Below, in pieces: positions 12,541 through 32,686 of a DNA stretch of 47,554 nucleotides. Each line of letters opens with the position of its first letter. Position 1 is the stretch's first letter. The stretch comes from Rubrivivax sp. (lineage in GTDB: Bacteria > Pseudomonadota > Gammaproteobacteria > Burkholderiales > Burkholderiaceae_C). Location of the stretch: NCBI GenBank assembly GCA_016789955.1, contig JAEUPB010000023.1:1-47554 (forward strand), given 5' to 3'. Position numbers and translations under genes: made by a program. The notes below the pieces were generated by a model. The model was not told where the DNA came from and searched no databases. It saw only the letters and a program-made list of their open reading frames with translations.

Positions 12541-14298
12541 TCAGCGCCGCGCCGGCAGGAAGTCCGCGCGCACCCAGGCGGCGCGGAACGCCGCGCCGTT
12601 GGCCTGGGCCTCCGCCGTGCGACCCAGCGCCGCGAGGCTGCGCTCCAGCCCCTGCAGCGCGCGCGGGTCGCCGGGCCAGGCCTCGAGCTGTTCGCGGTAG
12701 ACCTTCTCGGCATCGGCCGCACGGCCGGCGGCCAGCAACGCGGTGCCCAGCGCCGGCGCGGTGATCGAACCGAAGCTCGCCACCTCGCCGCCGTCGATGC
12801 TGCGCTCCAGTTCCTGCGCCCGCTTCAGCCAGTGCAGCGCCTGCTCGCGGTCACCGCGGGCCCAGGCCACCTCGCCGCGCAGCGAGGCCACGGCGATGCG
12901 CAGCGTCGGCGCGGCAGCCTCCACCGGATCGCGCTCGCCGGTGCCGGCCATCACTTCGAGCGACGCGAGTTCGCCCAGCGCATCGTCGGCCTGGCCCAGG
13001 CCGCGCGCCAGCGCCATGCCGCGCGCGTAGTGGGCCACGGCGCGCTCGTGGCGGTACCACGGCCGCGGCAGCTCGGTGCTGAGGATCTCGCCCCAGCGCT
13101 CGACCTGCACCATCGCGAGCCACGGCAGCTCGGCCGCGAGGTCGGCAGCCCAGCCGCCGCGGATGCGCTCGAGCATGCCGAACTTCGCCGACAGGCGCCG
13201 CGCGGCATCCACCGCCACGCGGCCCTGGCCGTCCATGGCGGCGGCGAACCACAGGAAGTGCAGGTGATGGAAGTCCCAGTTGCGGCCCGGCTCGCCGCCC
13301 TGCGCGCGGATCGCCGCGGCCAGTGCCACGTCGGCCTCCAGCGCACGCTGGTTGACGCGCGCCGCATCGCCGTAGCGGCCGACGCGGATGTAGGTGTGCG
13401 AGGGCATGTGCACGAGGTGCGGCAGCCCGGGCGAGATCGCGCCGAGACGATCGGCCGGGGCCTCGGCCCAGGTGGCGTCGGGGCCCTGCTCGGTGGCGTG
13501 GATCAGGAAGTGAATCAGGCCCGGGTGCTGCGGCGCCGCGGCCAGCGCACGGCGGATCACGTCGATGGCGGTCCTGGTGTTCGCGTGCGGCTGCTTGTTC
13601 TTGCCGTACCACGACCACGGCGTGAGCATCATCAGCGACTCGGCGTACAGCGCCGCCACGTCCACGTCGTCGGGGTGGCGCGCATGCGCCTCGGCCATCG
13701 CACGGGCGTAGGCCGTCTCGCGCGCAGGGGCGGCCGCGGCGTCGCCACTGAACGGCGAACCGGCCGCCGAGCACACCGAGCCGGGGCCGCCGGGGCCGGT
13801 GGTCTCCGAGGCCGCCGGCGTTTCGGGCGTGGGCTTCGGGTCGGCGTCGTAGCGCTCCTGCATCGCGGCGATGAGCCGCGCGTCGCGCGCGGACACGCGG
13901 CCGGCCGGCTGCCCCGCGGCGATGGCCGCGGCCTGCTGCGCGAAACCGTGCGCGCGCTTCAGCGCCGGCAGGTCCACCTCGCTGCGCGGGCGGTTGATGT
14001 TCGGCCCGAGCACGTAGGCCGCGCCCCAGGCGCACATCGCGCAGTCGGGATCCTCGCGCAGCGCCTGCTCGAAGGCGCGCGCGGCGCGGCCGTGCTCGAA
14101 GCCGTAGGCCAGCAGCACGCCCTGGTCGATCCAGCGCTGCGCGGCGGGGCTGGCGCCGCTCATCGTGGTGCGCCACGCGCCCAGGCCTTCGAGCCGCGGC
14201 ACCGGGCGCGTGGCATCGGCTGGAGCCAGCGTGGAGCAGGCACCGAGCAGCCCGGCGGCGAGCGGCCCGGCGACGACGAGGCGCAGCCGCCGTGTCAT
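12541..14298 (-). CDS. TPR-repeat lipoprotein at the end of the sen operon
   Basis: A 585-residue predicted lipoprotein. The signal peptide ends in the lipobox LGAC with Cys21. Tetratricopeptide-like helices follow (YGFEHGRAARAFEQALREDPDCAMCAWG and similar units), a low-complexity Pro/Gly/Ser segment sits around 150-180, and a conserved-looking HLVHMPSHTYIRVGRYGDAARVN stretch lies near 300. The protein is expected in the cell envelope. Its ATG overlaps the stop of the PhyH gene by four bases (ATGA), so it is translationally coupled to that gene. It is convergent with the cyclase gene, with 41 bases between. Function unknown; it may be a scaffold for envelope proteins. Confidence 0.8.
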   Translation of the reverse strand: MTRRLRLVVAGPLAAGLLGACSTLAPADATRPVPRLEGLGAWRTTMSGASPAAQRWIDQGVLLAYGFEHGRAARAFEQALREDPDCAMCAWGAAYVLGPNINRPRSEVDLPALKRAHGFAQQAAAIAAGQPAGRVSARDARLIAAMQERYDADPKPTPETPAASETTGPGGPGSVCSAAGSPFSGDAAAAPARETAYARAMAEAHARHPDDVDVAALYAESLMMLTPWSWYGKNKQPHANTRTAIDVIRRALAAAPQHPGLIHFLIHATEQGPDATWAEAPADRLGAISPGLPHLVHMPSHTYIRVGRYGDAARVNQRALEADVALAAAIRAQGGEPGRNWDFHHLHFLWFAAAMDGQGRVAVDAARRLSAKFGMLERIRGGWAADLAAELPWLAMVQVERWGEILSTELPRPWYRHERAVAHYARGMALARGLGQADDALGELASLEVMAGTGERDPVEAAAPTLRIAVASLRGEVAWARGDREQALHWLKRAQELERSIDGGEVASFGSITAPALGTALLAAGRAADAEKVYREQLEAWPGDPRALQGLERSLAALGRTAEAQANGAAFRAAWVRADFLPARR

Positions 14299-15113
14299 GC
14301 GGACTCCCGGGCCGGCCGGTGCCCTACCTCGAAGTCGTTGCGCCCGGTGCGGTCCACCCCGCGCAGCAGCCAGATCGGCCGGCGCGCGAAGTCCACTGGC
14401 ACGCCGCTCTGGCCGTCCACCGGGCGCAGCGTGCGGTCGAACAGCGACGTGGCCGGCATGTAGCGCAGCGCGACACCGGTGCGGCGCTGCGCCGAGCGGT
14501 TGGCCGCGGCGCCGTGGATCATGTAGACGTCGTGCAGCGACATCTGGCCCGGCTCGAGCTCGATGTCCACTGCGGAGCCTTCGTCCCAGTCGCCGTCGGC
14601 CATGCGCTGGTTCAGCGTGAGGTCGGTGCGGTCCTCGTGCAGGTGCGGCCACAGCCGTTGCCCGCGGTGCGAGCCGGGGATCACGCGCAGGCAGCCGTTG
14701 GCCCGCGTCGAGGGTTCCAGCGCCACCCAGGCGGTGCAGGTGGCCAGCGGCCGGATCGGCCAGTAGTGGCCGTCCTGGTGCCACGGCGTCTCGTAGCCTT
14801 CGCCGGGGGGCTTGCAGAACACGTGGCAGCCCCAGAGGATCACGTCGTCGCCGATCACGCCGGACACCAGCTCGACGATCTCGGGGTCGCGCGCCAGCTC
14901 GAGGAAATCGCGCACGCCGCGCACGCCCTCGCCGTTGTCGCCCTCGATGTGCGCCGACACCAGCTTCTCCGGGCGCACGCCGGGGTTGGCGGCCAGCAGC
15001 GCTTCCAGCGCCGCGGCCATCGCCGCCACGTGCGCCGGCGGCAGGCGGAAGCGCGGCACGACCCAGCCGTCGCGTGCGTAACGTTCGACTTCATCGGGCG
15101 CGAGGTGGGCCAT
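14295..15113 (-). CDS. Phytanoyl-CoA dioxygenase (PhyH) family Fe(II)/2-oxoglutarate oxygenase
   Basis: A 272-residue cupin-fold oxygenase. The iron-binding HxD is His112-Gln-Asp114 in TPWHQDGHYW; the distal ligand is most likely His200 in MIHGAAANRS, and a 2-oxoglutarate-binding Arg is expected at 211 or 217 (QRRTGVALRY). All catalytic residues are present, so it should be active. Family members hydroxylate varied small molecules. It sits two bases after the reductase gene and overlaps the lipoprotein gene by four bases, placing it in the transcript that begins at senB. A role in modifying a histidine betaine or selenium metabolite is a hypothesis only; members of this family do other jobs. 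Confidence 0.88.
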   Translation of the reverse strand: MAHLAPDEVERYARDGWVVPRFRLPPAHVAAMAAALEALLAANPGVRPEKLVSAHIEGDNGEGVRGVRDFLELARDPEIVELVSGVIGDDVILWGCHVFCKPPGEGYETPWHQDGHYWPIRPLATCTAWVALEPSTRANGCLRVIPGSHRGQRLWPHLHEDRTDLTLNQRMADGDWDEGSAVDIELEPGQMSLHDVYMIHGAAANRSAQRRTGVALRYMPATSLFDRTLRPVDGQSGVPVDFARRPIWLLRGVDRTGRNDFEVGHRPARESA

Positions 15114-15115
15114 CG

Positions 15116-16339
15116 TCAGTCTTCCACGGTCAAGGTCATGCCGGCCTCGCGCAACCGGCGCACGAGCACGGCGCCGAAGGCGGTGGCCGGCGTCAGCACC
15201 CCGCCGCCGGGCGGCAGCGCGTCGGCGTCGTGCAGCAGCGCCAGCGCCGACTCGCAGACGAACTTCGTCGTCGCGCGGTTGCCGGGGTCGCCGCGGTCGG
15301 CGATCTTGCCGCGCAGCACATGGCCTTCGGCATCGCGCGCCACCAGCCGGCAGCGGAACCAGCCTTCATCCATCGCCCGCTCGCTCGGGCCCTCGCCGGG
15401 CGCGGGCGTCACCTTCGACAGCAGCCAGCGCATCGGCGCCAGCGCCAGCGCGCCCTGCCCCGAGACTGCCATCGCGCTCATGCCCGCGGCCGCCAGCGCC
15501 GCGGCGGCGCCGTCGCCGTAGTGCTGGTACTCCTGGTAGCGCAGTCCCTCGGCGTAGCCGCCGTCGCCGCGCGCGCGGGCCAGCGCGGCGCTGCGGCGCA
15601 CCACGCGCGTGTTGATCGGCCCCATCACGAACGGGCCCAGCCACGCGTCGAAGTCGTCGTCGCGGTGCGGCGCGTAGGGGTCGGCATGCGGCGCGGTGTC
15701 TTCCGGCGCCGTGCCGGCTGGGTTCAGCAGGAACGGCTGCAGGAAGGCGTCGGTACGGCCCGACGCGAGGTTGTTCAAGAGCGACGCCACCGTGCCGCCG
15801 TTGACCCCGCCCTTCATCGAGAAGCTGGCCTTCACCTCGACGCAGGCGCTGCCGTGGCGCTCGCGCATCGCGCGCGTCATCAGCCATGTGCCCAGGTCGG
15901 ACGGCACCGAATCGAAGCCGCAGCCCGGCACGATGCGCGTGCCGTCGCGTGCCGCGGCATCGTGGTGGCGGTCGATCATCTTGCGCACCCACGGCGTCTC
16001 GCCGGTGATGTCGACGTAGTGCGTGCGCCGCCGCACGCAGGCCGCCACCAGTTCGCTGCCGTAGAGCGCGTAGGGCCCGGCCGAACTCAGCACCACGCGG
16101 GTCCCGGCGGCCAGCGCATCGAGCGCCGCGGCATCGTGGGCATCGGCGACAATGACGCCGGCCTCCGCCGCCGCAGGGCCGAGGCCGGCGAGCACCTCGC
16201 GCAGCTTGCCCGCGTTGCGCCCGGCCACCGCCCAGCGCAGGCCGGCGCCGTGGCGCGCGATGTATGCGGCGGTCTGCCGGCCGACGAAGCCGCTCGCGCC
16301 GTAGAGGACGAGGTCCCAGCGTCGCGTCGAGCGGGCCAT
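15116..16339 (-). CDS. Saccharopine dehydrogenase-like NAD(P)-dependent reductase
   Basis: A 407-residue protein of the saccharopine dehydrogenase/trans-acting enoyl reductase family. The N-terminal Rossmann motif GASGFVG (14-20) follows a short basic lead, the AGRN dinucleotide-specificity segment is near 39-42, and GCGFDSVPSDLGTWL marks the substrate domain. A DINT-like second half ends in a typical AFGAVLVRRLREAGM region. The start ATG at 16339 is 11 bases after the selD stop codon. It is between selD and a PhyH oxygenase in one operon, so it may act on a product of that pathway or on an unrelated lipid. Exact reaction unknown. Confidence 0.85.
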   Translation of the reverse strand: MARSTRRWDLVLYGASGFVGRQTAAYIARHGAGLRWAVAGRNAGKLREVLAGLGPAAAEAGVIVADAHDAAALDALAAGTRVVLSSAGPYALYGSELVAACVRRRTHYVDITGETPWVRKMIDRHHDAAARDGTRIVPGCGFDSVPSDLGTWLMTRAMRERHGSACVEVKASFSMKGGVNGGTVASLLNNLASGRTDAFLQPFLLNPAGTAPEDTAPHADPYAPHRDDDFDAWLGPFVMGPINTRVVRRSAALARARGDGGYAEGLRYQEYQHYGDGAAAALAAAGMSAMAVSGQGALALAPMRWLLSKVTPAPGEGPSERAMDEGWFRCRLVARDAEGHVLRGKIADRGDPGNRATTKFVCESALALLHDADALPPGGGVLTPATAFGAVLVRRLREAGMTLTVED

Positions 16340-16350
16340 CGCGGCGGCCG

Positions 16351-17412
16351 TCAGCGCACGACGAGCCGCGCCGGCCCGTCGACGATGCGGCCCACGGTGG
16401 CCGCCGCCGCGAAGCCGTGGCGGCGGAACACCGCCATCACCTCGGGCAGCGCGGCCTCGGTGCACGAGACGAGCAGCCCGCCGCTGGTCTGCGGGTCGGT
16501 CAGCAGCGCCTGGTCTTCCTTCGCGAAGCCGGCGGGCAGCACCACGTCCCTGCCGTAGCCGGCCCAGTTGCGGCCCGAGGCGCCGGTGACGAAGCCCTGA
16601 CTCGCGAGCGCGCGCACGCCGACGAGCAGCGGCACCTGCGCCCAGTCGATCTGCACCTCGCAGCCGGCACCGCGCGCCAGCTCCAGCCCGTGGCCGGCGA
16701 GGCCGAAGCCGGTGACGTCGGTCAGCGCGTGCACGCCGTCGAGTGCGGCCAGGTCCGGCCCGGGCGTGTTGAGCTTCGTCGTCGTGGCGATCATGCGCTC
16801 GTAGCCGGCGGCGTCGAGCTGCTCCTTCTTCAGCGCCGCCGACAGCACGCCCACGCCCAGCGGCTTGCCGAGCACCAGCACGTCGCCGGGGCGCGCGTCG
16901 GCATTGCGCTTCACGCGCTTGGGGTGCACAAGGCCGAGCGCGACGAGGCCGTAGATCGCCTCCACCGAGTCGATCGTGTGGCCACCGGCGATCGGGATGC
17001 CGGCCGAGCGGCACACCGACGCGCCGCCCTCGAGCACGCGGCCGATGGTGGCGGTGGAGAGCACGTTGATCGGCATGCCCACCAGCGCCAGCGCGAGGAT
17101 CGGCGTGCCGCCCATCGCGTAGACGTCGCTGATCGCGTTGGTAGCGGCGATGCGGCCGAAGTCGTGCGGGTCGTCGACGATCGGCATGAAGAAGTCGGTG
17201 GTGGCGATCAGCGCCTGCTCGTCGTTGAGCTGGTACACCGCCGCGTCGTCGCTGGTCTCGATGCCCACCAGCAGCTGCGGCGGGATCGGCATCGCCGCGG
17301 TGCCCTTGAGGATCTCCGAGAGCACGCCAGGGGCGATCTTGCAGCCGCAGCCGCCGCCGTGCGAGAGCGAGGTGAGGCGGGGCTCGGCGGGCGGCTTCTC
17401 GGGGGCGTTCAT
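16351..17412 (-). CDS. selD: Selenide, water dikinase SelD (SenC in selenoneine loci)
   Basis: A 353-residue SelD/AIR-synthase-fold enzyme that makes selenophosphate from selenide and ATP. The active-site loop GGGCGCK holds Cys22 and Lys25, matching Cys17 and Lys20 of E. coli SelD; the codon is Cys, not selenocysteine. Further motifs are TTDFFMPIVDDP, the NAISDVYAMGG segment and AGGHTIDS. The ATG overlaps the senB stop codon (ATGA), so the two are co-translated. No selA, selB, selC or tRNA 2-selenouridine synthase gene is visible, which points to a supply role for the adjacent selenosugar synthase. It may also serve selenoprotein or tRNA pathways encoded elsewhere. Confidence 0.95.
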   Translation of the reverse strand: MNAPEKPPAEPRLTSLSHGGGCGCKIAPGVLSEILKGTAAMPIPPQLLVGIETSDDAAVYQLNDEQALIATTDFFMPIVDDPHDFGRIAATNAISDVYAMGGTPILALALVGMPINVLSTATIGRVLEGGASVCRSAGIPIAGGHTIDSVEAIYGLVALGLVHPKRVKRNADARPGDVLVLGKPLGVGVLSAALKKEQLDAAGYERMIATTTKLNTPGPDLAALDGVHALTDVTGFGLAGHGLELARGAGCEVQIDWAQVPLLVGVRALASQGFVTGASGRNWAGYGRDVVLPAGFAKEDQALLTDPQTSGGLLVSCTEAALPEVMAVFRRHGFAAAATVGRIVDGPARLVVR

Positions 17413-18383
17413 GGTCGTGTCTCCAGCAACTGCGCCACGAGGCCGAGCACACGCTCGCGCTCGCGCGCCGGATCGAACAGCGGCGCCCGAGCCAGGGCAC
17501 GGGCGGTGAGGTCCGCCAGCATAGCGGGATCGTCGCGCAGGCGTTCCAGCGCGGCGGCGAGGCCCGCGGCGTCGCCGGCCTCGAACAGCGCCGGCCAGTC
17601 GTCGCCCAGCATGCCGAGGTTGCCGTCGATGCGCGAGGCCAGCACCGGGGTGCCGCTGCGCAGCGCCTCCATCACGACATGCGCGCCGCCTTCCATGCGG
17701 CTCATGTGCACCAGCACATGGGCGCGCCGGATGCGCGCGCGGGACGTCCCGTGCGGCAGGCCACCGAGCCAGCGGTAGTTCGGCGCCGCGGCCATCGTCT
17801 CGCGCGCTTCGTGGGCCAACGGCTCGGAGAGCGACGCACCGATGTGGTCGAGCACGATGTCGTCACGCGCGGCCAGTCGGCGCGCCGCCTCGAAGTAGGT
17901 GCGTGGGTCCTTCTCGTCGCGCAGGTGGCCCACGGCAAGAGCACGCAGCCGACGGCGCGTCTTCTCGTGCGGCTGCCAGGCGCTGCACGACTGCACGCTG
18001 ACGAACGCCTTCGCGCGCATCGCCTCGGGCAACGACTGCACGCCCAGCGCCTGCAGCACCACGAGCCGATCTGCGAGTTCGAGCGAACGCCGTGCGGCCG
18101 CATCGACCGGTACGTCGCGGTACAGGTCGGTGCCGGTGAGCACCACCACCAGTGGCCGCGCGACGAGCTGCTCGCGCCACGCCTGCACCGATGCGGCCGA
18201 GCGCCGCGCGTGCAGCGCGATCAGCAGATCGTCGTCCCCGCCGTCCCAGCGATCGACGAGCCGCACCCGATAATGGCCCGACAACCAGCGCGCCCAGCGT
18301 GACGCCGTCTGCCAGTTGCCGTTGTTGGCCGATGCGAGCGCGGGCGTGACCACACACAGTCTCGCTTTCGAGGGAATCGACAC
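17409..18383 (-). CDS. senB: Selenosugar synthase SenB (family TIGR04348 glycosyltransferase)
   Basis: A 324-residue GT-B glycosyltransferase. The N-terminal strand and loop LCVVTPALASANNGNWQTASRWARW carries the NGN...TA.RWAR pattern of the SenB family, and the C-terminal donor site includes MSRMEGGAHVVMEALRSGTPVLAS (the EGG...E motif). Known SenB forms a C-Se bond from selenophosphate and a UDP-sugar, giving a 1-seleno-sugar. The adjacent selD and divergent senA support this call strongly. Its start is GTG at 18383; it has no good ribosome-binding site and lies only seven bases from the senA start. The four-base overlap with selD couples the pair. Confidence 0.92.
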   Translation of the reverse strand: MSIPSKARLCVVTPALASANNGNWQTASRWARWLSGHYRVRLVDRWDGGDDDLLIALHARRSAASVQAWREQLVARPLVVVLTGTDLYRDVPVDAAARRSLELADRLVVLQALGVQSLPEAMRAKAFVSVQSCSAWQPHEKTRRRLRALAVGHLRDEKDPRTYFEAARRLAARDDIVLDHIGASLSEPLAHEARETMAAAPNYRWLGGLPHGTSRARIRRAHVLVHMSRMEGGAHVVMEALRSGTPVLASRIDGNLGMLGDDWPALFEAGDAAGLAAALERLRDDPAMLADLTARALARAPLFDPARERERVLGLVAQLLETRP

Positions 18384-18390
18384 GGGCTCG

Positions 18391-19626
18391 ATGATGGAGG
18401 AATCGACGCTGCTGCGCCGCGGCGACGCCGACGCGCTCGCGCAAGGCCTGGCCGATGCACGCGGCCGGCTGTCCCGGCTGCTCGATGCCTACGAGCGCAC
18501 GCTGCCGCGCGGCCTCGAGGTGCCCTATGCCGCCGAGCTGAACCCGCCGCGCTGGGAGTTCGGGCACGTCGCGTGGTTCGAGGAGTTCTGGATCGGCCGC
18601 CACCCGGGCCGCCTCTCGGGGCTCGCGGCGACGGCCGACTCGCCGCGCGCCGCCTCGTGGTGGCCCGCGGCCGATGCGCTGTACGACTCGTCGAAGGTGT
18701 CGCACACCTCGCGCTGGCACCTCGACCTGCCGTCGGCCGCCACCACGCGCCGCTATGCCGCCGCGGTGCGCGAGCGCACGCTGGCGCTGCTGGCCGGCAC
18801 GCCCGACGACGACGCGCTGCTGTACCCGTACCGCCTCGCGCTGGCCCACGAGGACATGCACGGCGAAGCCTGGAGCTACATGGCGCAGCACCTGGCGCTG
18901 GACGTGGCCGACGCGCTGGAAGCCACCGGGCCCGCCGCGGTGGCGCCCGAGGCCGACGGCGAGGCCACGCTGCCCGCCGCCAAGCACCGCCTCGGCCACG
19001 ACGGCCCCGGCTACGCCTTCGACAACGAACTCGGTGCGCACGACGTGGAGCTGGCCGCGTACACGATCGACCGCGCGCCGGTGACGTGGGCCCGCTACCT
19101 GCCGTTCGTGGAGGACGGCGGCTACCGCGAGGCGCACTGGTGGAGCCCCGAGGGCTGGGCCTGGCGGCAGCGCGCCAATCTCGCCGCGCCGCGCTACCTG
19201 CGGCGCGACGACGACGCCGGCGGCACGTGGCAGCGCGCCACCTTCGGCCGCTGGATGCCGCTGGACCCGCAGCAGCCCGCAGTGAACCTGTCGCGCCACG
19301 AGGCCGAGGCCTGGTGCCGCTGGGCCGGCCGGCGGCTGCCCACCGAGGCCGAGTGGGACCACGCGGCACAGGCGCTGGGCGATGCTTGCACCTGGGGCCA
19401 GGTGTGGGAGTGGACCGCGAGCCCGTTCGCCCCCTACCCCGGCTTCGTGCCGCACCCGTACGCCGACTACTCGCAGCCCTGGTTCGACGGCCGCCCGGTG
19501 CTGCGCGGCGCGTCGTTCGCGACCGCGCCGCGCATGAGGAGCCGCGCCTACCGCAACTACTTCCCGGCCGGGCGCAACGACATCTGGGCGGGGTTCCGGA
19601 CCTGCGCGGTCGAGCTGGCCGGCTGA
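18391..19626 (+). CDS. senA: Selenoneine synthase SenA (EgtB-like, DinB + FGE domains)
   Basis: A 411-residue non-heme iron enzyme of the EgtB superfamily. A DinB-like four-helix domain (about 15-180) carries the iron ligands His59 (FGHVAW) and the HxxxHxE pair His153/His157 with Glu159 (AHEDMHGEAW). A formylglycine-generating-enzyme-like domain follows from about 210 (HDVELAAYTIDRAPVTWARY ... RLPTEAEW ... LRGASFATAP). SenA joins hercynine to the selenosugar with O2. A plain EgtB for ergothioneine is the alternative; the adjacent senB and selD favour SenA. Starts at tandem ATG 18391/18394; no close Shine-Dalgarno. The stop lies one base from the convergent dehydrogenase gene. Confidence 0.9.
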   Translation: MMEESTLLRRGDADALAQGLADARGRLSRLLDAYERTLPRGLEVPYAAELNPPRWEFGHVAWFEEFWIGRHPGRLSGLAATADSPRAASWWPAADALYDSSKVSHTSRWHLDLPSAATTRRYAAAVRERTLALLAGTPDDDALLYPYRLALAHEDMHGEAWSYMAQHLALDVADALEATGPAAVAPEADGEATLPAAKHRLGHDGPGYAFDNELGAHDVELAAYTIDRAPVTWARYLPFVEDGGYREAHWWSPEGWAWRQRANLAAPRYLRRDDDAGGTWQRATFGRWMPLDPQQPAVNLSRHEAEAWCRWAGRRLPTEAEWDHAAQALGDACTWGQVWEWTASPFAPYPGFVPHPYADYSQPWFDGRPVLRGASFATAPRMRSRAYRNYFPAGRNDIWAGFRTCAVELAG

Positions 19627-19627
19627 G

Positions 19628-20416
19628 TCAGCTCCGCGATCGGCGCACGATCGCGCCCGAGACCTTGCGCAGCAGCCACTTCGGCGTGGCGCGCGCGGCC
19701 AGCGTGGCGGCGAGGTTCACGGCGCCGGGCACCACGATCACGTCGCCGCGCAGGCAGCCGCGCACGCCAAGGTCGGCCACGTCGGCCGCGTCGCCCACCA
19801 CGGCGCGCGGCAGCTTCGAGAGCACCGGGTTCGCGTCGGCGGCGCCGCTGAGCATCTCGGTGGCGGTGATGCCGGGGCAGAGCGCGGTGATCGTCACGCC
19901 GCTGTCGCGCAGTTCCTCGGCCAGCGACTCGGTGAGCGAGAGCACGTAGGCCTTCGTCGCCGCGTAGGTGGCCAGGTGCGGCACCGGCTGGAACGACGCG
20001 ATCGAGGCGACGTTCAGGATGCGCCCGCTGCCGCGTTCGCGCATGCCGGGCAGGAACAGCGCGATCAGCCCGGTGAGGGCGCGCACGTTCAGGTCGATCA
20101 TCGCCAGGTGGTCGTTCATCGTCATGTCGGCGAACGGCCCCTGGTCGAGCACGCCGGCGTTGTTGACGAGGATGTCCACGTCGAGCTTGCGGCGCCGGCA
20201 CGAGGCCAGCAGCCGCGCCGGCGCGCCGGGCTCGGTGACGTCCATCGCCACCACATGCGCCTTCACGCCGTGCGCCTTCGCCACTGCCGCGGCCAGCGTG
20301 CGCAGCCGTTCCTCGCGGCGCGCCACGAGCACGAGCGCATGGCCTTCGGCCGCGAAGCGGTGCGCGAGCGCTGCGCCGATGCCCGAGGAGGCGCCGGTCA
20401 CGAGGGTGGTGGTCAT
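19628..20416 (-). CDS. Short-chain dehydrogenase/reductase downstream of egtD
   Basis: A 262-residue classical SDR. The cofactor motif TGASSGIG spans residues 7-14, NNAG is at 85-88, and the catalytic Ser near 138-141, Tyr151 and Lys155 (YAATK) are all present. The basic residues after the second strand (ARREERL) suggest NADP(H). The C-terminal tail is long and basic (TPKWLLRKVSGAIVRRSRS), possibly membrane-associated. It lies 60 bases after egtD on the same strand and is convergent with senA, one base apart. It may be a genuine partner of the selenoneine genes or a passenger; the substrate is unknown. Confidence 0.88.
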   Translation of the reverse strand: MTTTLVTGASSGIGAALAHRFAAEGHALVLVARREERLRTLAAAVAKAHGVKAHVVAMDVTEPGAPARLLASCRRRKLDVDILVNNAGVLDQGPFADMTMNDHLAMIDLNVRALTGLIALFLPGMRERGSGRILNVASIASFQPVPHLATYAATKAYVLSLTESLAEELRDSGVTITALCPGITATEMLSGAADANPVLSKLPRAVVGDAADVADLGVRGCLRGDVIVVPGAVNLAATLAARATPKWLLRKVSGAIVRRSRS

Positions 20417-20476
20417 CGGGTGCGGGATCGGAACACGGGATGGAGCCGATTCTGCGGCGGCATCAAGACGCCGGCA

Positions 20477-21439
20477 TCACGACGCCAGCATCAGCGCGAA
20501 CCAGCCACGCTCGTCGGTCCAGTGCTGCACGTGCACGTAGCCGGCATCGCGCAGCAGCGCGGCGAAGTCGTCGAGGCGCCACTTGTACGAGTTCTCGGTG
20601 TGGATGCGTTCACCCGCCGCGTAGCGCCGCTCGCCACCGGGCCAGCGCACGACGAGGTCGGCACGCGCCTCCAGGTGCATCTCGATGCGCGAGCGCGGCT
20701 CGTCGAAGAGGGCCACGTGGCGCCACTGGCGCGGGTCGAAGTCGCAGCCGACGAGCCGGTTCGCGTGGCGCAGCAGGTTGAGGTTGAAGGCGGCCGTCAA
20801 GCCCACCGCGTCGTCGTACGCGGCTTCGAGCACGGCGCGGTCCTTCACCAGGTCGACGCCGATCAGCAGTGCGGCCTGCGGCGCGATCGTGCGCGCCTGC
20901 CTCAGCAGCCCCAGCGCTTCGTCGGGCGTGAAATTGCCGATGCTCGAGCCCGGGTAGAACACCAGCGCCCGCTCGCCGACCAGTTCGGCCGGCAGCGCCA
21001 GCCGGCGCGAGAAGTCCAGGCCCACGCCGACCATCTCGAGCGTCGGATGCAGCTTCTGCTGCTCGGCCAGTGCGTCGCGCAGGAACGCCGCCGAGATGTC
21101 CACCGCGACGTAGCGCGACAGCGGCAAGCCGCCGAAGAACCACGCGGCCTTGCGGCAATTGCCGGCGCCCAGGTCGACGAGGCTGCAGCCGGCGCCGAGG
21201 CGCTCGACCACGGCCGCACAGATGCCGGCGCCCTGGGCGGCGACGATGGCCGCCTCGGTGCGCGTGGGGTAGTACTCGGGCAGCAGCGTGATGGCGTCGA
21301 ACAGCGTCGAGCCGAGCGCGTCGTAGAAGAACTTGGGCGGCAGTGTCGACGGCCTGGCGAGCAGGCCGCGCACGATCTCGGCAGCGGGAGCCTCTCCGGC
21401 GGCGGGGTCGTCGAGTTGCAGGAATCGAGGTGGGGTCAT
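20477..21439 (-). CDS. egtD: L-histidine N(alpha)-methyltransferase EgtD
   Basis: A 320-residue SAM-dependent methyltransferase that trimethylates histidine to hercynine, the substrate of SenA. The SAM motif is DLGAGNCRKA (Asp89 onward), preceded by the family lead KFFYDALGSTLFDAITLLPEYYPTR. Histidine-binding positions recognisable from mycobacterial EgtD are Asn169 in YPGSSIGNF and Glu282/Ser284 in IHTENSYKW. No other ergothioneine gene (egtA, egtC or egtE) is nearby, so its product most likely feeds selenoneine synthesis here, possibly also ergothioneine elsewhere. The start ATG at 21439 has only a weak ribosome-binding site. It is divergent from the TlpA-like gene. Confidence 0.94.
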   Translation of the reverse strand: MTPPRFLQLDDPAAGEAPAAEIVRGLLARPSTLPPKFFYDALGSTLFDAITLLPEYYPTRTEAAIVAAQGAGICAAVVERLGAGCSLVDLGAGNCRKAAWFFGGLPLSRYVAVDISAAFLRDALAEQQKLHPTLEMVGVGLDFSRRLALPAELVGERALVFYPGSSIGNFTPDEALGLLRQARTIAPQAALLIGVDLVKDRAVLEAAYDDAVGLTAAFNLNLLRHANRLVGCDFDPRQWRHVALFDEPRSRIEMHLEARADLVVRWPGGERRYAAGERIHTENSYKWRLDDFAALLRDAGYVHVQHWTDERGWFALMLAS

Positions 21440-21565: not shown

Positions 21566-22123
21566 ATGAGTGACCGTCGATGCCCCGCTCCGCGCCGCCG
21601 GCTGGCGCTGCAGGCGCTGGCTGCCTGCGCCGGCTGCGCGCTGCTGTCCGCGCATGCGGCCGAGCCCGGTCACGAATGGCGCCCCTGGCCGCGCAACAAG
21701 GCCGTGCCACCGCCGATGGAGCTCGACGCTCTCGACGGCACGCGCTGGCGAGCCGCCGCCTCGCGCGGGCAGGTGCTGCTGGTGAACTTCTGGGCCACCT
21801 GGTGCGAACCCTGCCGCGCCGAGCTGCCGTCGCTGCAGCGGCTGGCCCTGCGCGGGCCGGCGCAGGGCCTGCGCGTGGTGGCCGCAAACTACGGGGAATC
21901 CCCCGCCGCGGTGCAGCGCTTCCTGCAGGCGCAAGGCCTGCAGCTCGACGTGGTGCTCGACCGCGACGGCCAACTCGCCCGCGCGTGGACACCACGCATC
22001 TTCCCCTCCACCGTCGTGTTCGACCGCCGCGGCCGGCCCGCCGGCGTGCTGGTCGGCGAGATCGACTGGGACACCGCCGAGGCGCGGGCGCTGCTCGCGC
22101 CGGTGCTCGCAACCCGCCCCTAA
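21566..22123 (+). CDS. TlpA-like periplasmic thioredoxin
   Basis: A 185-residue secreted thiol-disulfide protein. The N-terminus MSDRRCPAPRRRLALQALAACAGCALLSAHA is an Arg-rich signal peptide, cut near AHA-AEP. The thioredoxin domain has the redox motif WATWCEPC with Cys80 and Cys83, then the cis-proline region FPSTVVFDRRGRP. These proteins are usually reductants for periplasmic disulfides. Two in-frame ATGs exist, 21542 and 21566; I chose 21566 because the signal peptide begins there. It is divergent from egtD with about 126 bases between, and starts a run of plus-strand genes. A link to selenium or sulfur redox chemistry is possible but unproven. Confidence 0.87.
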   Translation: MSDRRCPAPRRRLALQALAACAGCALLSAHAAEPGHEWRPWPRNKAVPPPMELDALDGTRWRAAASRGQVLLVNFWATWCEPCRAELPSLQRLALRGPAQGLRVVAANYGESPAAVQRFLQAQGLQLDVVLDRDGQLARAWTPRIFPSTVVFDRRGRPAGVLVGEIDWDTAEARALLAPVLATRP

Positions 22124-23925: not shown

Positions 23926-25283
23926 CGCTGCCGCGCATCGGCCTGTTCTTCAGCTACGACTGGGACACGCACGGCTTCAACCGCTCGCTGGCCCGCTACG
24001 GCTACGACGAAGCCGGCTTCGACCTGTTCAGCTTCCCGAGCAACGCGCGGCTGGCCGCCTTCGACCTCGACCGCTTCGCCGCGCGCCAGGCCGCGCGCGG
24101 GCGCGCGCTGCGCTGGCGCGGCGTGGTTTCGCACCACGAGCAGTTCGGCGCGCTGGCCGCGGCGCTAGTGGCCGAACGGCTCGGGCTGCGGGCTCCGCCG
24201 GTGGAAGCCGTGCTGGCCGCGCAGCACAAGCTGCATGCGCGCCGTGTGCTGCAGCAGGTGGCGCCCGAGGCCAACATCGGCTTCAGCGACCTCGACGCGG
24301 TGTACGGCGGCGAGATCCCCGCGCGGCTGCGCTACCCCACCTACGTGAAGCCGGTGAAGGCGGCGTTCTCGGTGCTGGCGCGCGAGGTGGCCAGCCGCGA
24401 CGAACTGGTCGAGCACACCCGCTTCGGCTGGCGCGAGCTGTGGGTCATCAAGCGCCTCGTGGAGCCGTTCGAGCGCATCTGCCGCGCGCGGCTGCCGCAG
24501 GCCGGCACCGCGCACCGCATGATGCTCGAGGAGCCGGTGCCGATCGAGACGCCGCAATACAACCTCGACGGCTGGGTGCAGGGCGGCGAGGTGCACCTGC
24601 TCGGCGTGGTCGACGCGATCATGGTGCCCGGCACTCAGGCCTTCCTGCGCTGGGACGTGCCCAGCCGGCTGCCCGCGCCGGTGCAGCAGCGGGCGCTCGA
24701 CGTGGCGCGCCGCTTCCTCGCGGCGATCGGCTACGACCACGGCTTCTTCAACATGGAGTTCTTCTTCGACGCCGCCGCAGACCGTCTCGCGGTGATCGAG
24801 TTCAACCCGCGGCTGGCCTCGCAGTTCTCCGACCTCTACCTGCGCACCACCGGGCACGACGCGCATGCGATGTCGCTGGCGCTGGCCACCGGCGAGGACC
24901 CGCTGGCGCTGCCGCGGGCCGAGCCGGTGGGCGGCGCGGCGGCGAGCTTCGTCTACCGCACCTTCCCCGGCCAGGCGCCGCCGCCGATGCCCGATGCACA
25001 CCTGGTGCGCGAGTTCGAGCGCTGCTTCCCCGATGCGCTGCTGTACGCCTACCCGCGCACGGGCCATGCGCTCGAGCGCGACTACAAGTGGCTGGGCAGC
25101 TGGCGCCACGGCATCATTCATCTGCACGGCCGCGACGCACGCGACCTGCGCGAGCGCTGCGAGCACGCCAGCGCGCTGCTCGGCTGGACCCCGCCCTACG
25201 CCGACCTGCAGCGCCACCGCGCGCCGACGGTGCCGCAGCGACCCGACGAACCCTGGAACCTGCAAGGAGTGACGACCCGATGA
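23922..25283 (+). CDS. ATP-grasp family enzyme
   Basis: A 453-residue protein with an ATP-grasp core. A non-canonical N-terminal domain opens with IGLFFSYDWDTHGFNRSLARYGYDE. The ATP-binding lysine region appears at PTYVKPVKAAFSVLAREV, and the metal/ATP motif is GFFNMEFFFD ... LAVIEFNPRLASQFSDLYLRTTG near 265-305. Such enzymes ligate carboxylates to amines or thiols through an acyl phosphate. It overlaps the VTT gene by four bases and the YHS lipoprotein gene by four, so the three are one translational unit. The substrate is unknown; pairing with membrane and envelope proteins suggests an envelope or small-peptide product. Confidence 0.83.
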   Translation: MTLPRIGLFFSYDWDTHGFNRSLARYGYDEAGFDLFSFPSNARLAAFDLDRFAARQAARGRALRWRGVVSHHEQFGALAAALVAERLGLRAPPVEAVLAAQHKLHARRVLQQVAPEANIGFSDLDAVYGGEIPARLRYPTYVKPVKAAFSVLAREVASRDELVEHTRFGWRELWVIKRLVEPFERICRARLPQAGTAHRMMLEEPVPIETPQYNLDGWVQGGEVHLLGVVDAIMVPGTQAFLRWDVPSRLPAPVQQRALDVARRFLAAIGYDHGFFNMEFFFDAAADRLAVIEFNPRLASQFSDLYLRTTGHDAHAMSLALATGEDPLALPRAEPVGGAAASFVYRTFPGQAPPPMPDAHLVREFERCFPDALLYAYPRTGHALERDYKWLGSWRHGIIHLHGRDARDLRERCEHASALLGWTPPYADLQRHRAPTVPQRPDEPWNLQGVTTR

Positions 25284-27199: not shown

Positions 27200-28351
27200 T
27201 CAGCCCGCCGGGCGCAGCCGCGGCACGGCGGCCACGCGCCGCGGCGCGGTGCTGCCGCGCTCCATCAGCGTCCACGCCACGGCGCCAGTGCCCTCTTCGG
27301 CGCCCTCGCCCGCCTCGCCCAGCCGCCGCAGGATCATCGCCGCCGTCTCGCGGCCGATCTCGTAGCGCGGCGGGCGCACGCTGGTGATGCCCGCGCCGAG
27401 CTGGCGGGTGAGAGGGAAGTCGCCGAAGCCCATCAGCGCCACCTGCGCCGGCACGGCGATGCCGCGCCGCTCGGCCTCGAGGTACGCACCGCAGGCGAGG
27501 TGGTCGTTGGCGAAGGCGATGGCGTCGACCTGGATGCGGCCGCGCGAGTCGAGCAGGCGCGTCACCGCCTCGCGGCCCGCCTCGAAGGCGTCGCCCGCCG
27601 TCGCGGTGAGCAGTTGCGCCTGCACGCCGGCCACCGCGCGCGCGGCGCCGAGGAATGCCTTGCCGCGCTCGTGCGCGCGGAAGTCGGCGGCCACGCCGGT
27701 GTCCACGTAGGCCAGCGCCCGGTAGCCGGCGCGCGTGAGGTGGCGCGCCATCGCGCGGCCGACCTCCGCATGGTTGAAGCCCACCTGCGCGAAGGCGGTG
27801 GCGCGGGGCTGCCAGTCCCACATCTCGATGATCGGCGTGCCGGCGTTCGCGGCGGCCTGCAGCAGCGCACGGGCTGCGTCGGTGTGCTGTCGGCCGGTGA
27901 CGGCCAGCGCGTCCGGCGACCACCCGAGCACCGCGCGGATCTGCTGCTCCTCGCGCGTCGGCGAATAGCCGGTGGCTGCCAGCAGCAGCTCGTAGCCGCG
28001 ACTCTGCAGCCCCTCGGCCAGACCCTGCACGGTGTCGGCGAACACCGAATTGGCGAGCGACGGCACGATCGCCGCCACCACGCGCGAGCGGCCGCTGGCG
28101 AGCATGCCCGCCTGGCGGTTCGGCATGTAGCCCTGCTCGGCCAGCGCGCGGGCGATGCGCTCGGCGGTGGCCGGCGCCACGCGGTGCGGCTCGCGCAGGT
28201 AGCGCGACACGGTCACCTTCGTGACGCCCACCGCGTCGGCGATGTGCTGCAGCGTGCTGCGGCCGTGCGTGCGGCGTCTGGGCGCCGTGGCGGGGGAATC
28301 GGCCGGGGGGGCCGCGGGAGCGGGTGGCATGTCGCGCGGAGGCATCGGCAT
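27200..28351 (-). CDS. LacI-family transcriptional regulator (gluconate-repressor-like)
   Basis: A 383-residue repressor. A helix-turn-helix lies at about 33-55 (STLQHIADAVGVTKVTVSRYLREP), the hinge continues through MLASGRSRVVAAIVPSL, and a periplasmic-binding-type sensor domain occupies about 70-345 with the usual DAIAFANDHLACGA and VALMGFGDFPLTRQL motifs. The Pro/Ala-rich N-terminal 25 residues are extra. Alternative starts are ATG 28345 and 28330; no start has a clear ribosome-binding site. It is divergent from the dehydratase gene, and a gnt-type operator lies between. Ligand likely a sugar acid or its phosphate. Confidence 0.92.
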   Translation of the reverse strand: MPMPPRDMPPAPAAPPADSPATAPRRRTHGRSTLQHIADAVGVTKVTVSRYLREPHRVAPATAERIARALAEQGYMPNRQAGMLASGRSRVVAAIVPSLANSVFADTVQGLAEGLQSRGYELLLAATGYSPTREEQQIRAVLGWSPDALAVTGRQHTDAARALLQAAANAGTPIIEMWDWQPRATAFAQVGFNHAEVGRAMARHLTRAGYRALAYVDTGVAADFRAHERGKAFLGAARAVAGVQAQLLTATAGDAFEAGREAVTRLLDSRGRIQVDAIAFANDHLACGAYLEAERRGIAVPAQVALMGFGDFPLTRQLGAGITSVRPPRYEIGRETAAMILRRLGEAGEGAEEGTGAVAWTLMERGSTAPRRVAAVPRLRPAG

Positions 28352-28392
28352 CAGGGTAGGGCCCGATGGCCGGGCATGCTACCCCGCTCAGA

Positions 28393-28420
28393 ATGTCACC
28401 GGTAACATCACCGGTGTCAT
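28393..28420 (+). promoter_or_regulatory. gnt-type LacI operator, overlapping tandem copies
   Basis: ATGTCACCGGTAACAT at 28393-28408 is nearly identical to the E. coli GntR (gluconate repressor) operator ATGTTACCGGTAACAT, with one mismatch. A second copy, ACATCACCGGTGTCAT, overlaps it at 28405-28420 with the 8-base palindrome CACCGGTG at its centre. Both lie 10-37 bases before the dehydratase start, between divergent genes, so binding would repress the dehydratase and probably the regulator itself. Confidence 0.75.
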
Positions 28421-28429
28421 CGGCCGACC

Positions 28430-30166
28430 ATGTCCCGCCCGCTGGAATCGCTGCGCAGCCGCCGCTGGTTCGCCGCCAACGACATGCGCGGCTTCGCGCA
28501 CCGGCAGCGCCTGCAGCAGATGGGCGTGCGCCGCGAGGACCTGCTCACGCGCCCGGTGGTGGCGGTGATCGACACCTGGAGCGAGCTGTCGCCGTGCCAT
28601 GCGCACCTGCGCGAGCGTGCCGAGTCGGTGAAGAAGGGCGTGCTGATGGCCGGCGGGCTGCCGCTGGAACTGCCGGCGCCGGGCCTGGGCGAGGTGATCG
28701 TCAAGCCCACGACGATGCTCTACCGCAACCTGCTCGCGCTCGAGGTCGAGGAGCTGCTGCGCTCGCACCCGGTGGACGGCGCGGTGATCCTGGCCGGCTG
28801 CGACAAGACCACGCCCGGCACGCTGATGGGCGCGATCAGCATGAACCTGCCGGTGCTGTTCTTCGCCGCCGGCCCGATGCTGTCCGATCGCCTGGTGCGC
28901 GACGGCCGCACCATGCTCGTCGGCGCCGGTACGCACACCCGCATGTTCTGGGACGACCACCAGGCCGGCCGCATCGGCGCCGACGAATGGGTGGCGCTGG
29001 AAGCCACGATGACGCGCTCGCCCGGCACCTGCAACACGATGGGCACCGCCAGCACGATGACCTCGCTGGTCGAGGCGCTGGGGCTGGCGCTGCCCGGCAG
29101 CACTGCGATCCCGGCGATGGACGCGGCGCACGTGCGCATGGCCACCACCTGCGGCGAACGCATCGTCGGCATGATCGGCGAGGACCTCACGCCGTCGAAG
29201 CTGCTGACGCGCGGCGCCTTCCTCAATGCCGGCGCGGTGCTGATGGCGCTGGGCGGCTCCACCAACGCGGTGATCCACCTGACGGCGATGGCCGGCCGCG
29301 CCGGCGTGACGCTGACGCTCGACGACTTCGACGCACTCGGGCGCCGGGTGCCGGTGCTGGCCAACATCTTCCCCACCGGCGACCGGCTGATGGAGGACTT
29401 CCACTACGCCGGCGGCCTGCCCGCACTGATGTCGCGGCTGGCCGGCGCCGGGCTGCTCTCGCTCGAGGAGCGCGGCGTCGACGGCCGCACGCTGGGCGAA
29501 CGGCTGCACGACGCCGTGGTGCGCGACCCCGAGGTCATCCGCCCGCTCGACCGGCCGCTCTCCACCGAGGGCCTGGTGGTGCTGCGCGGCAACCTGGCGC
29601 CCGACGGCGCGGTGATGAAGGCCTCGGCCGCCGAGCCGCGGTTCCGCCGCCACCGCGGCCGCGCGCTGGTGTACGACTCGCCGCTGGCGATGCGCACCGC
29701 GATGGCCGACCCTGACCTCGACTGCGACGAGGACACCGTGCTCGTGCTGCGCCACGCCGGCCCGATCGGCGCGCCGGGCATGCCCGAGTGGGGCGGCCTG
29801 CCGCTGCCGCAGAAGCTGCTGCAGCGCGGCGTGCGCGACATGGTGCGCATCTCCGACGCGCGCATGAGCGGCACGCACTATGGCGCCTGCGTGCTGCACG
29901 TGGCGCCCGAGGCCGCGATCGGCGGGCCGCTGGCGCTGGTGCGGAGCGGCGACGAGATCGAGCTCGACGTCGCCGCGCGCCGCCTGCACCTGTGCGTGGG
30001 CGACGACGAGCTCGCGCGGCGCCGCGCCGAGTGGCAGCCGCCGGCACCGCGCTACGAGCGCGGCTACACAAAGCTGTACCAGGCCCACGTGACGCAGGCC
30101 CCCGAGGGCTGCGACTTCGATTTCCTGCAGGGCCGGGCGCCGACGCCCGAGCCCGACATCTTTTGA
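28430..30166 (+). CDS. IlvD/Edd family sugar-acid dehydratase
   Basis: A 578-residue [Fe-S]-dependent dehydratase. The iron-sulfur ligands are Cys56 (SPCHAHL), Cys124 (LAGCDKTTPG) and Cys201 (PGTCNTMGTAST), matching the L-arabonate and D-xylonate dehydratase type. Its length (578) also fits that subgroup. Expected reaction: dehydration of a sugar acid to a 2-keto-3-deoxy acid. The substrate could be an aldonate, or a galactonate/fuconate-type acid; the sequence does not decide. It is followed by a TonB receptor 28 bases later. The start lacks a clear ribosome-binding site and is almost adjacent to the operator. Confidence 0.92.
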   Translation: MSRPLESLRSRRWFAANDMRGFAHRQRLQQMGVRREDLLTRPVVAVIDTWSELSPCHAHLRERAESVKKGVLMAGGLPLELPAPGLGEVIVKPTTMLYRNLLALEVEELLRSHPVDGAVILAGCDKTTPGTLMGAISMNLPVLFFAAGPMLSDRLVRDGRTMLVGAGTHTRMFWDDHQAGRIGADEWVALEATMTRSPGTCNTMGTASTMTSLVEALGLALPGSTAIPAMDAAHVRMATTCGERIVGMIGEDLTPSKLLTRGAFLNAGAVLMALGGSTNAVIHLTAMAGRAGVTLTLDDFDALGRRVPVLANIFPTGDRLMEDFHYAGGLPALMSRLAGAGLLSLEERGVDGRTLGERLHDAVVRDPEVIRPLDRPLSTEGLVVLRGNLAPDGAVMKASAAEPRFRRHRGRALVYDSPLAMRTAMADPDLDCDEDTVLVLRHAGPIGAPGMPEWGGLPLPQKLLQRGVRDMVRISDARMSGTHYGACVLHVAPEAAIGGPLALVRSGDEIELDVAARRLHLCVGDDELARRRAEWQPPAPRYERGYTKLYQAHVTQAPEGCDFDFLQGRAPTPEPDIF

Positions 30167-30194
30167 CCGCAACAACCACGACGGAGACCAGCCC

Positions 30195-32501
30195 ATGAGC
30201 CGTGCACGCAACGCCGAACTCCATCGGCGCCCCCTCGCCGCCACCGCGCTGGCACAGGCCCTGGCCTGCGCCGGCCTCGCCGCGCTGGCGCTCGCGCCGG
30301 CGCAGGCGCAGACCACCGCGCCGGCCGCCGGCGCGCAGAAGCCCGACGACAAGGTCCAGGAGGTCGTGGTCACCGCCACGCGGCGCGCCGAGCCGCTGCA
30401 GAAGGTGCCGGTGGCCGTGTCGGTGCTCGACGGCCTGGGTCTCGAACAGGCGAACCTGAACACGCTGCAGTCGATCACGACCCAGGTGCCCAGCGTCAAC
30501 TTCCGCACCAACGCGTCGAACAAGGACCGCTCGCTGTTCATCCGCGGCGTCGGCACGATCTCCACCTCGCCCGGCGTCGAGCCGACCGTCTCGACCATCG
30601 TCGACGGCGTGGTCATGGCCCGCCCCGGCCAGGCTACGCTCGACCTGCTGGACGTCGAGCGCATCGAGGTGCTGCGGGGCCCGCAGGGCACCCTTTTCGG
30701 CCGCAACGCGTCGGCGGGCGTGATCAACGTCGTCTCGAAGTCGCCCAGCAAGGCGCGTGAGGGCTACATCGACCTCGGCTACTTCAGCGGCGGCAACGAG
30801 CGGCGCATCCGCGGCGGCGTGTCGGGCGAGTTCGCGCCCGGCGTGGCGCGTGGCTCGGTCACCGCGCTGGCCGGCAAGTTCGACGGCAACGTCACCAACA
30901 TCGCCAACGGCGAGAAGGTCAACGGCTACGACAAGCAGGGCGCGCGCGCCAAGGTCGAGCTGACGCCGAACCGCGACCTGAAGGTCACGCTGTCGGCCGA
31001 CTACCTGAAGTCCGAGGACACCGTGCCGCTGGGCGTGGTGACACGCACGAGCCTGATCGCCTTCCCCAGCGGCGTGGTCAGCACCTTTCCCGCGTTCGCC
31101 ACGGCGCTGGCACCGGCGAAGATCGCCGACGACAGCCGCGAGATCAACAGCGACATCCGCACCCGCGTGGAAGACACCAACGCCGGCGTCTCGGCGATGC
31201 TCGACTGGAACCTGGGCGGCGGCCACACGCTGACGTCGATCACCGCGCAGCGCACCTGGAAGAACCGCCAGATCCAGGACGGCGACCGGCTGTCGGCACC
31301 GCCCTCCACCGCGTTCCCGAGCTCCAACGACGACGGCCGCGTCGACTTCAAGCAGACCACGCAGGAGCTGCGCATCGCCTCGCCCGGCGGGCAGACCTTC
31401 GACTACGTGGCCGGCTTCTTCTACCTGAAGGGCGACAACGACGAGGTCTACCGCCGCGACGTCAAGCGCATCATCAGCGGCGCCACGCAGGCCGACTTCG
31501 GCGTGGCCGACTACGGCACGCAGACCACCAGCTGGGCGGTGTTCGGCGAAGGCACCTGGCGCTTCTCGCCGGGCCTGCGCGGCGTCGTCGGCCTGCGGTA
31601 CACGAAGGACGAGCTCGAGTTCCGCCACCTGCGTACGTCCACGCAGGCCGCGGCCTTCCCCGGCGTGAGCCCGGGCCAGGCCAACGCCACCGGCACCACG
31701 TCCACCCACGGCACCTCCGGCCGCATCGGCCCGCAGTTCGACCTCGCCCCCGGCATCAGCGGCTACGCCACCTACTCGCGCGGATACAAGGGCCCGGCCT
31801 TCAACGTGTTCTTCAACATGCTGGAGCGCGACCGCATCGCCATCGCACCCGAGACCTCGGATTCGTACGAAGTCGGCCTGAAGACGACGCTGCTGGACAA
31901 CAAGCTGCGGCTCAACGTCGCGATCTTCGACACGCGCTACAAGAACTACCAGGCCAACTTCTTCGACACCGTGGCGGGCACGGTGGTCACCCGCCTCATC
32001 AACGCGGGCGAGGTCGGCACCAAGGGCATCGAGATGGACTTCACCGCCAAGCCGACCACGGCGCTGACGGTGTCGGGCTCGGTGGCCAACATCAAGGCGC
32101 GCATCCGCAACTTCAACTGCCCGCCGGGCGCCGCGACGAGCTGCCAGGTCAACGGCCTGCCGCTGCCGTTCGCGCCCGACTGGAAGGCCGCCGTGCAGGC
32201 CACGTACCGCTGGACGCTCGCCGGCGGCATGGGCCTGGAGCTGGGCACCGACTACGCGTGGCAGAGCAAGACGCAGTACGACATCGGCCAGTTCCCCGAC
32301 ACCGTGCAGCCCGAGTACGGCATCTGGAACGCCAGCGTCGCGTTGTCGAGCAGCAGCGGCTGGCGCGCCGCCTTCCTCGTGAAGAACATCACCGACAAGT
32401 CGTACGCATCGTTCCTGGGCCGTGGCGGCACGTTCCTGAGCCGCGCCGTGCCGCGCGACGACACGCGCTACTACGGCGTGAACCTGCGCTACGACTTCTA
32501 A
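30195..32501 (+). CDS. TonB-dependent outer-membrane receptor
   Basis: A 768-residue receptor. A signal peptide ends near AQAQ; the TonB-box-like segment EVVVTATRRAEPLQKVPVAVSVL lies at about 55-80. The plug domain (about 60-190) contains IRGVGTISTS and VERIEVLRGPQGTLFGRNASAGVINVVSK. The C-terminal barrel ends in the usual aromatic residue (LRYDF). These proteins import large or scarce substrates by proton-motive energy. Co-transcribed with the dehydratase 28 bases upstream, so its substrate is probably a sugar or oligosaccharide rather than iron. A GGAG ribosome-binding site precedes the ATG. Confidence 0.93.
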   Translation: MSRARNAELHRRPLAATALAQALACAGLAALALAPAQAQTTAPAAGAQKPDDKVQEVVVTATRRAEPLQKVPVAVSVLDGLGLEQANLNTLQSITTQVPSVNFRTNASNKDRSLFIRGVGTISTSPGVEPTVSTIVDGVVMARPGQATLDLLDVERIEVLRGPQGTLFGRNASAGVINVVSKSPSKAREGYIDLGYFSGGNERRIRGGVSGEFAPGVARGSVTALAGKFDGNVTNIANGEKVNGYDKQGARAKVELTPNRDLKVTLSADYLKSEDTVPLGVVTRTSLIAFPSGVVSTFPAFATALAPAKIADDSREINSDIRTRVEDTNAGVSAMLDWNLGGGHTLTSITAQRTWKNRQIQDGDRLSAPPSTAFPSSNDDGRVDFKQTTQELRIASPGGQTFDYVAGFFYLKGDNDEVYRRDVKRIISGATQADFGVADYGTQTTSWAVFGEGTWRFSPGLRGVVGLRYTKDELEFRHLRTSTQAAAFPGVSPGQANATGTTSTHGTSGRIGPQFDLAPGISGYATYSRGYKGPAFNVFFNMLERDRIAIAPETSDSYEVGLKTTLLDNKLRLNVAIFDTRYKNYQANFFDTVAGTVVTRLINAGEVGTKGIEMDFTAKPTTALTVSGSVANIKARIRNFNCPPGAATSCQVNGLPLPFAPDWKAAVQATYRWTLAGGMGLELGTDYAWQSKTQYDIGQFPDTVQPEYGIWNASVALSSSSGWRAAFLVKNITDKSYASFLGRGGTFLSRAVPRDDTRYYGVNLRYDF

Positions 32502-32531
32502 GTGAAGCCCCCGAGCTCCCTAGCGGTCGCT

Positions 32532-32587: not shown

Positions 32588-32686
32588 CGGCAGAGCCGGA
32601 CCGGTGACGGTGCTCGGTCCTTGGCATTCGTGCGCCATGCGCGGGAACGCCACCGAGGCGCGCGACGTGATGCTGGAGGACTGACG

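Follow-up and report, generated by a model that had tools for sequence, protein, structure and literature searches.

Four selenoneine pathway genes within 5.1 kb

We analysed a 47,554-base stretch of DNA from Rubrivivax sp. (hereafter the window), which is one whole contig (JAEUPB010000023.1, G000:C8) of the draft genome G000 (assembly GCA_016789955.1, 5.26 Mb in 116 contigs, 79.6% complete with 2% contamination and probably a metagenome assembly). The genes of SelD, SenB, SenA and EgtD, which would together make up a pathway to selenoneine, all lie inside 5.1 kb of the window, and the original prediction, which had claimed these four at 16351-21439, placed every one of them correctly. selD (equivalent to senC; 16351-17412, minus strand) encodes a 353-amino-acid selenide, water dikinase, the enzyme that makes selenophosphate; senB (17409-18383, minus strand) encodes a selenosugar synthase (Se-glycosyltransferase) of 324 amino acids from a GTG start; senA (18391-19626, plus strand) encodes a selenoneine synthase of 411 amino acids from the ATG at 18391; and egtD (20477-21439, minus strand) encodes a 320-amino-acid histidine N-alpha-methyltransferase, the enzyme that makes hercynine. 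A gene for an SDR-family oxidoreductase (19628-20416, minus strand) is located between senA and egtD. senB and selD overlap by 4 bp, and senA diverges from this pair, with 7 bp separating the start codons used here (18383-18391), although the start of senA is uncertain, as upstream starts and an ATG at 18394 are also present. Due to the head-to-head arrangement of senA and senB, the locus comprises at least two transcription units pointing apart, not one operon.

Proteins were assigned to families with NCBIfam models and their curated cut-offs (given below as bits against cut-off), and all four pathway proteins pass their own. SelD scored 423.5 bits on TIGR00476 (cut-off 125), and its best match in the PDB was the selenide, water dikinase 3u0o (E 2.1e-93). 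The segment SHGGGCGCKI, which contains the GCGCK motif, aligns to SHGAGCGCKI of the 3u0o chain, in agreement with the predicted intact active site. The overlapping glycosyltransferase is indeed of the TIGR04348 type (416 bits, cut-off 300), and its best PDB matches are Se-glycosyltransferases (8k5u, E 2e-96; 8fbx, E 4.6e-92), the second of which shares 171 of 314 aligned residues with the window protein. In the available text of PMC10891094, N20, T23 and E231 of SenB are assigned to the sugar donor and K158 to Se-P cleavage. When the 16 SenB residues named in that text were mapped via the 8fbx chain in the 8jjq register, 14 were identical in the window protein, including N20, T23, K158 and E231, and the EGGAHV motif is present as well. 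EgtD, also expected in the locus, scored 350.9 bits on TIGR03438 (cut-off 290.9; scanned from 21436, one codon after the ATG) and matched best the EgtD structure 4uy6 (E 8e-58).

SenA groups with selenoneine synthases rather than with EgtB

The senA product scored 502 bits on the SenA model NF041186 (cut-off 420), and its best PDB match is the selenoneine synthase 8ryz (E 2e-111). On the EgtB model TIGR03440 it reached 263.2 bits, below the cut-off of 360, and it passes the broad EgtB-related signature TIGR04373 with 78 bits (cut-off 71). The original prediction had described an EgtB-like enzyme with His59, His153 and His157; these residues (ATG 18391 as residue 1) fall in the histidine columns of the EgtB chain 4x8b and of the SenA chains in the PDB, and we take them to be the iron ligands.

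Two trees place this protein. A quick tree was built from 105 rows, i.e. 102 of 123 collected proteins and three PDB chains, with 21 proteins dropped to thin near relatives; the collection had skipped hits shorter than 600 bases, proteins shorter than 300 amino acids and identical copies. Here SenA fell within a 49-row clade with 8ryz (SH-like approximate likelihood ratio test, SH-aLRT, 98), separate from a 14-row group with 4x8b, the one solved EgtB chain there; this group carries an internal long-branch warning. A careful tree of 61 rows likewise joined SenA to 8ryz, in a clade of 30 rows (bootstrap 99, SH-aLRT 97). Thus, in the phylogenetic comparison that had been proposed as a check, the EgtB-like protein falls with SenA 8ryz and not with EgtB 4x8b. 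Among named organisms, Rubrivivax sp. Ww161 (locus L070) has the nearest SenA, 62% identical over 402 columns. This fits a place in the Burkholderiales, as does the SenA2 protein (see below) of G325, a family member, whose sequence is identical to that of L100, a record named Rhodoferax. SenA-like proteins adjacent to SenB also occur outside the SenA clade, e.g. at L003 and L005. The original prediction had reported egtA, egtC and egtE as missing from the locus; the ergothioneine enzyme covered here was EgtB. A search of G000 with the EgtB model found no EgtB over the cut-off (its matches were SenA with 255 bits, a SenA paralogue with 143 and a weak match with 46), and this absence is suggestive only, because the assembly is 79.6% complete.

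Gene order is shared with relatives and the SDR gene is not

Gene order was compared in 43 relatives' loci, namely those with matches to senA, senB and egtD. The window order, selD< senB< senA> egtD< (arrowheads give direction), was found in 22 of them, and nine more have senB< senA> egtD< without a selD being seen, several of these with short flanks, so that the order is common to 31/43. The remaining arrangement, senA> selD> egtD> senB<, occurs in 12 loci and is of the Polynucleobacter type. In some of the 43, egtD or selD is several kilobases away. Loci of Rubrivivax, Rhizobacter, Hydrogenophaga and other Burkholderiales (L070-L104) have the gene order and orientation of the window and differ from it by the SDR gene in the senA-egtD spacer of the window. 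Polynucleobacter-type loci (L108-L116, L120-L122) contain the same four genes but in their own order, and their SenA is 33-36% identical where the match is long. Moreover, senA and senB are head-to-head in 72 of 83 loci (the window is counted, as are a few loci that were fetched twice), with a median gap of 24 bp between the sites equivalent to the window's first codons, compared with 7 bp in the window. Short spacing is thus a recurring feature of the related loci and probably places the promoters within coding sequence. The SenA cut-off was exceeded in 65/300 genomes of the order and 21/60 of the family, counts that include members of the SenA2 clade described below.

The SDR gene has the orientation of egtD and lies 60 bp downstream of it, with its own end 1 bp from that of senA. 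Its product scored 178 bits on Pfam adh_short, and no NCBIfam equivalog was over its cut-off among the best 25 of 220 matches. None of the 43 relatives' loci gave an SDR match between senA and egtD, where many gaps are too short to hold such a gene (the spacer is below 130 bp in 23). In L070, the nearest relative, this gap is occupied by an unrelated frame. Hence, the SDR gene is probably a passenger, and its candidacy as a pathway gene was rejected on its absence from this position in the relatives.

Elsewhere in the window, a saccharopine-dehydrogenase-like gene and a PhyH-family dioxygenase gene (14295-16348, minus strand) lie downstream of selD on the same strand, and neither had a match in the relatives' sen loci. 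A LacI-type regulator, a dihydroxy-acid/phosphogluconate dehydratase, a TonB receptor, parts of a sugar ATP-binding cassette (ABC) transporter and an FGGY kinase at 27200-44913 form a likely sugar-use cluster. The region 23958-25283 gave no Pfam match, and 21580-22123 gave no family match in the frame scanned.

A single SelD probably serves two pathways

SelD and SenC are named as the same activity, and a sen cluster with SenC, SenB and SenA is described, in the available text of PMC9814287, PMC10903977 and PMC10702425. The selD of the locus is the sole SelD over the cut-off in G000, where the next match scored 59 bits (cut-off 125). The genome also encodes selA (C48:59055-60395, 582 bits), selB (C48:57086-58966, 446 bits) and tRNA-Sec (C48:56960-57051), all on one contig apart from the sen locus. 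Thus, with one SelD and the selenocysteine genes elsewhere, the single enzyme probably feeds both selenoneine and selenocysteine synthesis, and the gene content suggests that selenophosphate from the locus supplies the latter too. Of the predicted 'selD/senC', the gene itself stands, while its role needs refinement: as the only SelD detected, it is probably not dedicated to selenoneine. A dedicated extra SenC was rejected, given one SelD over the cut-off in G000; likewise, two whole SelD genes over the cut-off were found in none of 40 family genomes (G302 has one SelD in two pieces).

Among these 40 genomes, 13 had a SenA-level match (one of them split over frames) and 12 had SelA, and the two occurred together in three (G000, G310 and G335). 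For a third selenophosphate user, MnmH, no match was found in G000 at its 79.6% completeness, whereas 35/40 family genomes have MnmH over the cut-off. Because of this prevalence, incompleteness of the assembly is the likelier cause, and loss of selenouridine synthesis in G000 was rejected as an explanation. Of the 27 family genomes that lack a SenA-level match, 14 have selD and mnmH no more than 2.5 kb apart, compared with none of the 13 that have such a match (Fisher p 0.001, relatedness ignored).

A SenA sister clade whose histidine triad is often broken

G000 contains a second SenA-like protein outside the window (C25:50572-51801; L123:6573-7802, plus strand), which scored 292 bits, under the SenA cut-off, and lacks the third of the iron histidines (HHS). 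Its clade, here named SenA2, is sister to canonical SenA and in the careful tree comprises 24 rows from 23 genomes (bootstrap 100, SH-aLRT 100). The histidine triad is broken in 15 of these rows, with the third histidine lost in all 15, and intact in nine (eight genomes; L100 and L160 are identical), while all 37 careful-tree rows outside SenA2 keep it. The fewest histidine-loss changes on the tree are two, on two SenA2 branches. Members without the third histidine can pass the SenA cut-off of 420, as do L126 (6420-7670, minus strand; 477.8 bits), L131 (6361-7590, minus strand; 441.2 bits) and L128 (6404-7657, plus strand; 424.5 bits). Automatic annotation would therefore name at least three broken SenA2 proteins selenoneine synthase.

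Genome content differs between the two kinds of SenA2. Of the eight genomes with an intact triad, seven have SenB, and six of these have no canonical SenA over the cut-off (G340 has one); the eighth, G346, gave no SenB match in a genome that is 86% complete. Among the 15 with a broken triad, eight have both SenB and canonical SenA (in G318 the latter is divided between two frames and may be broken), and the other seven have neither SenB nor SenA over the cut-off, apart from the broken members listed above. SenB without canonical SenA thus occurs in 6/8 genomes with intact SenA2 against 0/15 with broken SenA2 (Fisher p 0.0003, relatedness ignored; SenA-like matches below the cut-off in these genomes, at about 315-371 bits, are only partly placed on the tree). 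The 23 genomes act as a natural control: no genome with SenB has only a broken SenA2 (0/15, with the split SenA of G318 as a caveat), which supports the reading of the window as a selenoneine locus. In G313, selD, senB and egtD lie together without senA (L165:4735-7719), with the intact SenA2 encoded on a different contig, and at L167:45-7286, selD, senB and an intact SenA2 are directly beside three molybdenum hydroxylase subunits.

Full-length reading frames of broken SenA2 are still present in 15 genomes from different genera, seven of them without SenB. By codon position (first, second, third), L128 and L153 differ by 20, 18 and 41%, and L123 and L164 by 28, 34 and 37%. Owing to this uneven constraint, we grade retention unevenly: sequence comparison makes it likely that selection retains some broken SenA2 proteins, while selective retention of G000's own copy is unproven.

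Most SenA2 loci lie near molybdenum and tungsten genes

At L123, the SenA2 gene follows a hybrid kinase gene, and overlaps a LuxR-type response regulator gene by 11 bp; genes for a molybdenum hydroxylase and a ModE/LysR-like regulator come next. Tungstate/molybdate transport genes, a ModE/LysR-like regulator or a molybdenum hydroxylase are frequent neighbours of broken SenA2 genes. The markers scored were a ModE-like regulator, TupA, TupB and molybdenum-hydroxylase subunits, with queries from L123, L126 and L131, and a weak match to an ABC ATPase alone (four control loci) was not scored. Markers were near SenA2 in 16 of 22 wide-flank loci (L126, L128, L130, L131, L152-L168 and, counted with them, L123) and in 0 of 26 canonical SenA loci (Fisher p 3e-8), a comparison in which controls are not genus-matched and rows are related, so that common descent of the region might produce this pattern as well. 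Among the 35 loci L070-L104, 27 reached the 12 kb needed for a control, and one of these, L100, is SenA2 and was not counted. The marker idea came from five loci; among the 16 loci fetched afterwards, 11 had a marker (p 1e-6). No marker was present in six SenA2 loci (L129, L153, L154, L155, L162 and L163).

One tentative explanation, which we consider somewhat less probable than its negation, is that SenA2 is a selenium enzyme recruited to an iron-free role other than selenoneine synthesis, as a binding or sensing pseudoenzyme or with other chemistry, tied to molybdenum or tungsten enzymes, and that intact SenA2 may replace SenA in a few genomes. In the open-licence literature, judged by title or abstract start, there was no SenA paralogue and no link between selenoneine and tungstate. 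SenA2, outside the window, is the novel lead, and the window locus itself is of a kind already described.

DISCUSSION

We hold with high confidence that the locus encodes a complete pathway of selenoneine biosynthesis. As published work on relatives would predict, EgtD would trimethylate histidine to hercynine and SelD (SenC) would convert selenide to selenophosphate, with which SenB would join selenium to a uridine diphosphate (UDP)-sugar and release a selenosugar. SenA, a non-haem iron enzyme, would then couple selenosugar, hercynine and oxygen, and breakdown of the resulting selenoxide would yield selenoneine. From the genome we infer that hercynine goes to selenoneine rather than to ergothioneine. 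The locus is ordinary in the sense that the pathway and such clusters are already published, as the available text of PMC9814287, PMC10891094 and PMC10702425 describes. These texts also give the sen cluster of Variovorax paradoxus DSM 30034 as senA, senB and senC (Kayrouz et al. 2022). The window shares these three enzymes by family, with SenB and SenA residues conserved, and differs from that description by the presence of egtD, with the SDR gene before it, and by a selD that is the only one detected in a genome with selA, selB and tRNA-Sec.

Several points weigh against this interpretation. Selenoneine is a predicted product, and at 79.6% completeness it is unproven that G000 lacks EgtB or a further SelD. 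Two of the mapped SenB positions differ from V. paradoxus SenB (V157 to Glu and T214 to Ser), and in the available text of PMC10891094, V157 is near the N-acetyl group and its mutants are less active. Nor does the pathway reading account for the SDR insertion or the near-zero senA-senB gap.

Some of these points bear on a different or additional selenium compound, e.g. a selenosugar as end product or a selenoneine modified by the SDR enzyme, which we regard as improbable. The change at SenB position 157 and the SDR gene 60 bp after egtD on its strand would fit such a product, and SenB is described in the same partial text as making free selenosugars from several UDP-sugars; however, SenA and EgtD are intact, and a passenger SDR gene would fit the senA-egtD gaps of 43 relatives' loci, where no SDR match occurs, and the unrelated frame of L070. 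Slightly less probable still, and rejected, is an ergothioneine locus in which the SenA-like enzyme is an EgtB using a thiol donor and the glycosyltransferase is unrelated: the EgtD step, the fold and the iron ligands are common to both pathways, and the protein reaches 263 bits with the EgtB model and passes TIGR04373, but it misses the EgtB cut-off while passing that of SenA, both trees group it with SenA, senA adjoins senB and selD as in relatives, and no EgtB was over the cut-off in G000.

As a selenoneine locus, the window adds one more genome to a described kind, and its gene order makes the pathway easy to recognise. Given a single SelD that probably serves both pathways, selenium would be split between two sinks in one cell. 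Moreover, the SenA2 clade matters for the annotation of selenoneine synthases, and if its link to molybdenum and tungsten is functional, it would represent an unexpected second life for a selenium enzyme.

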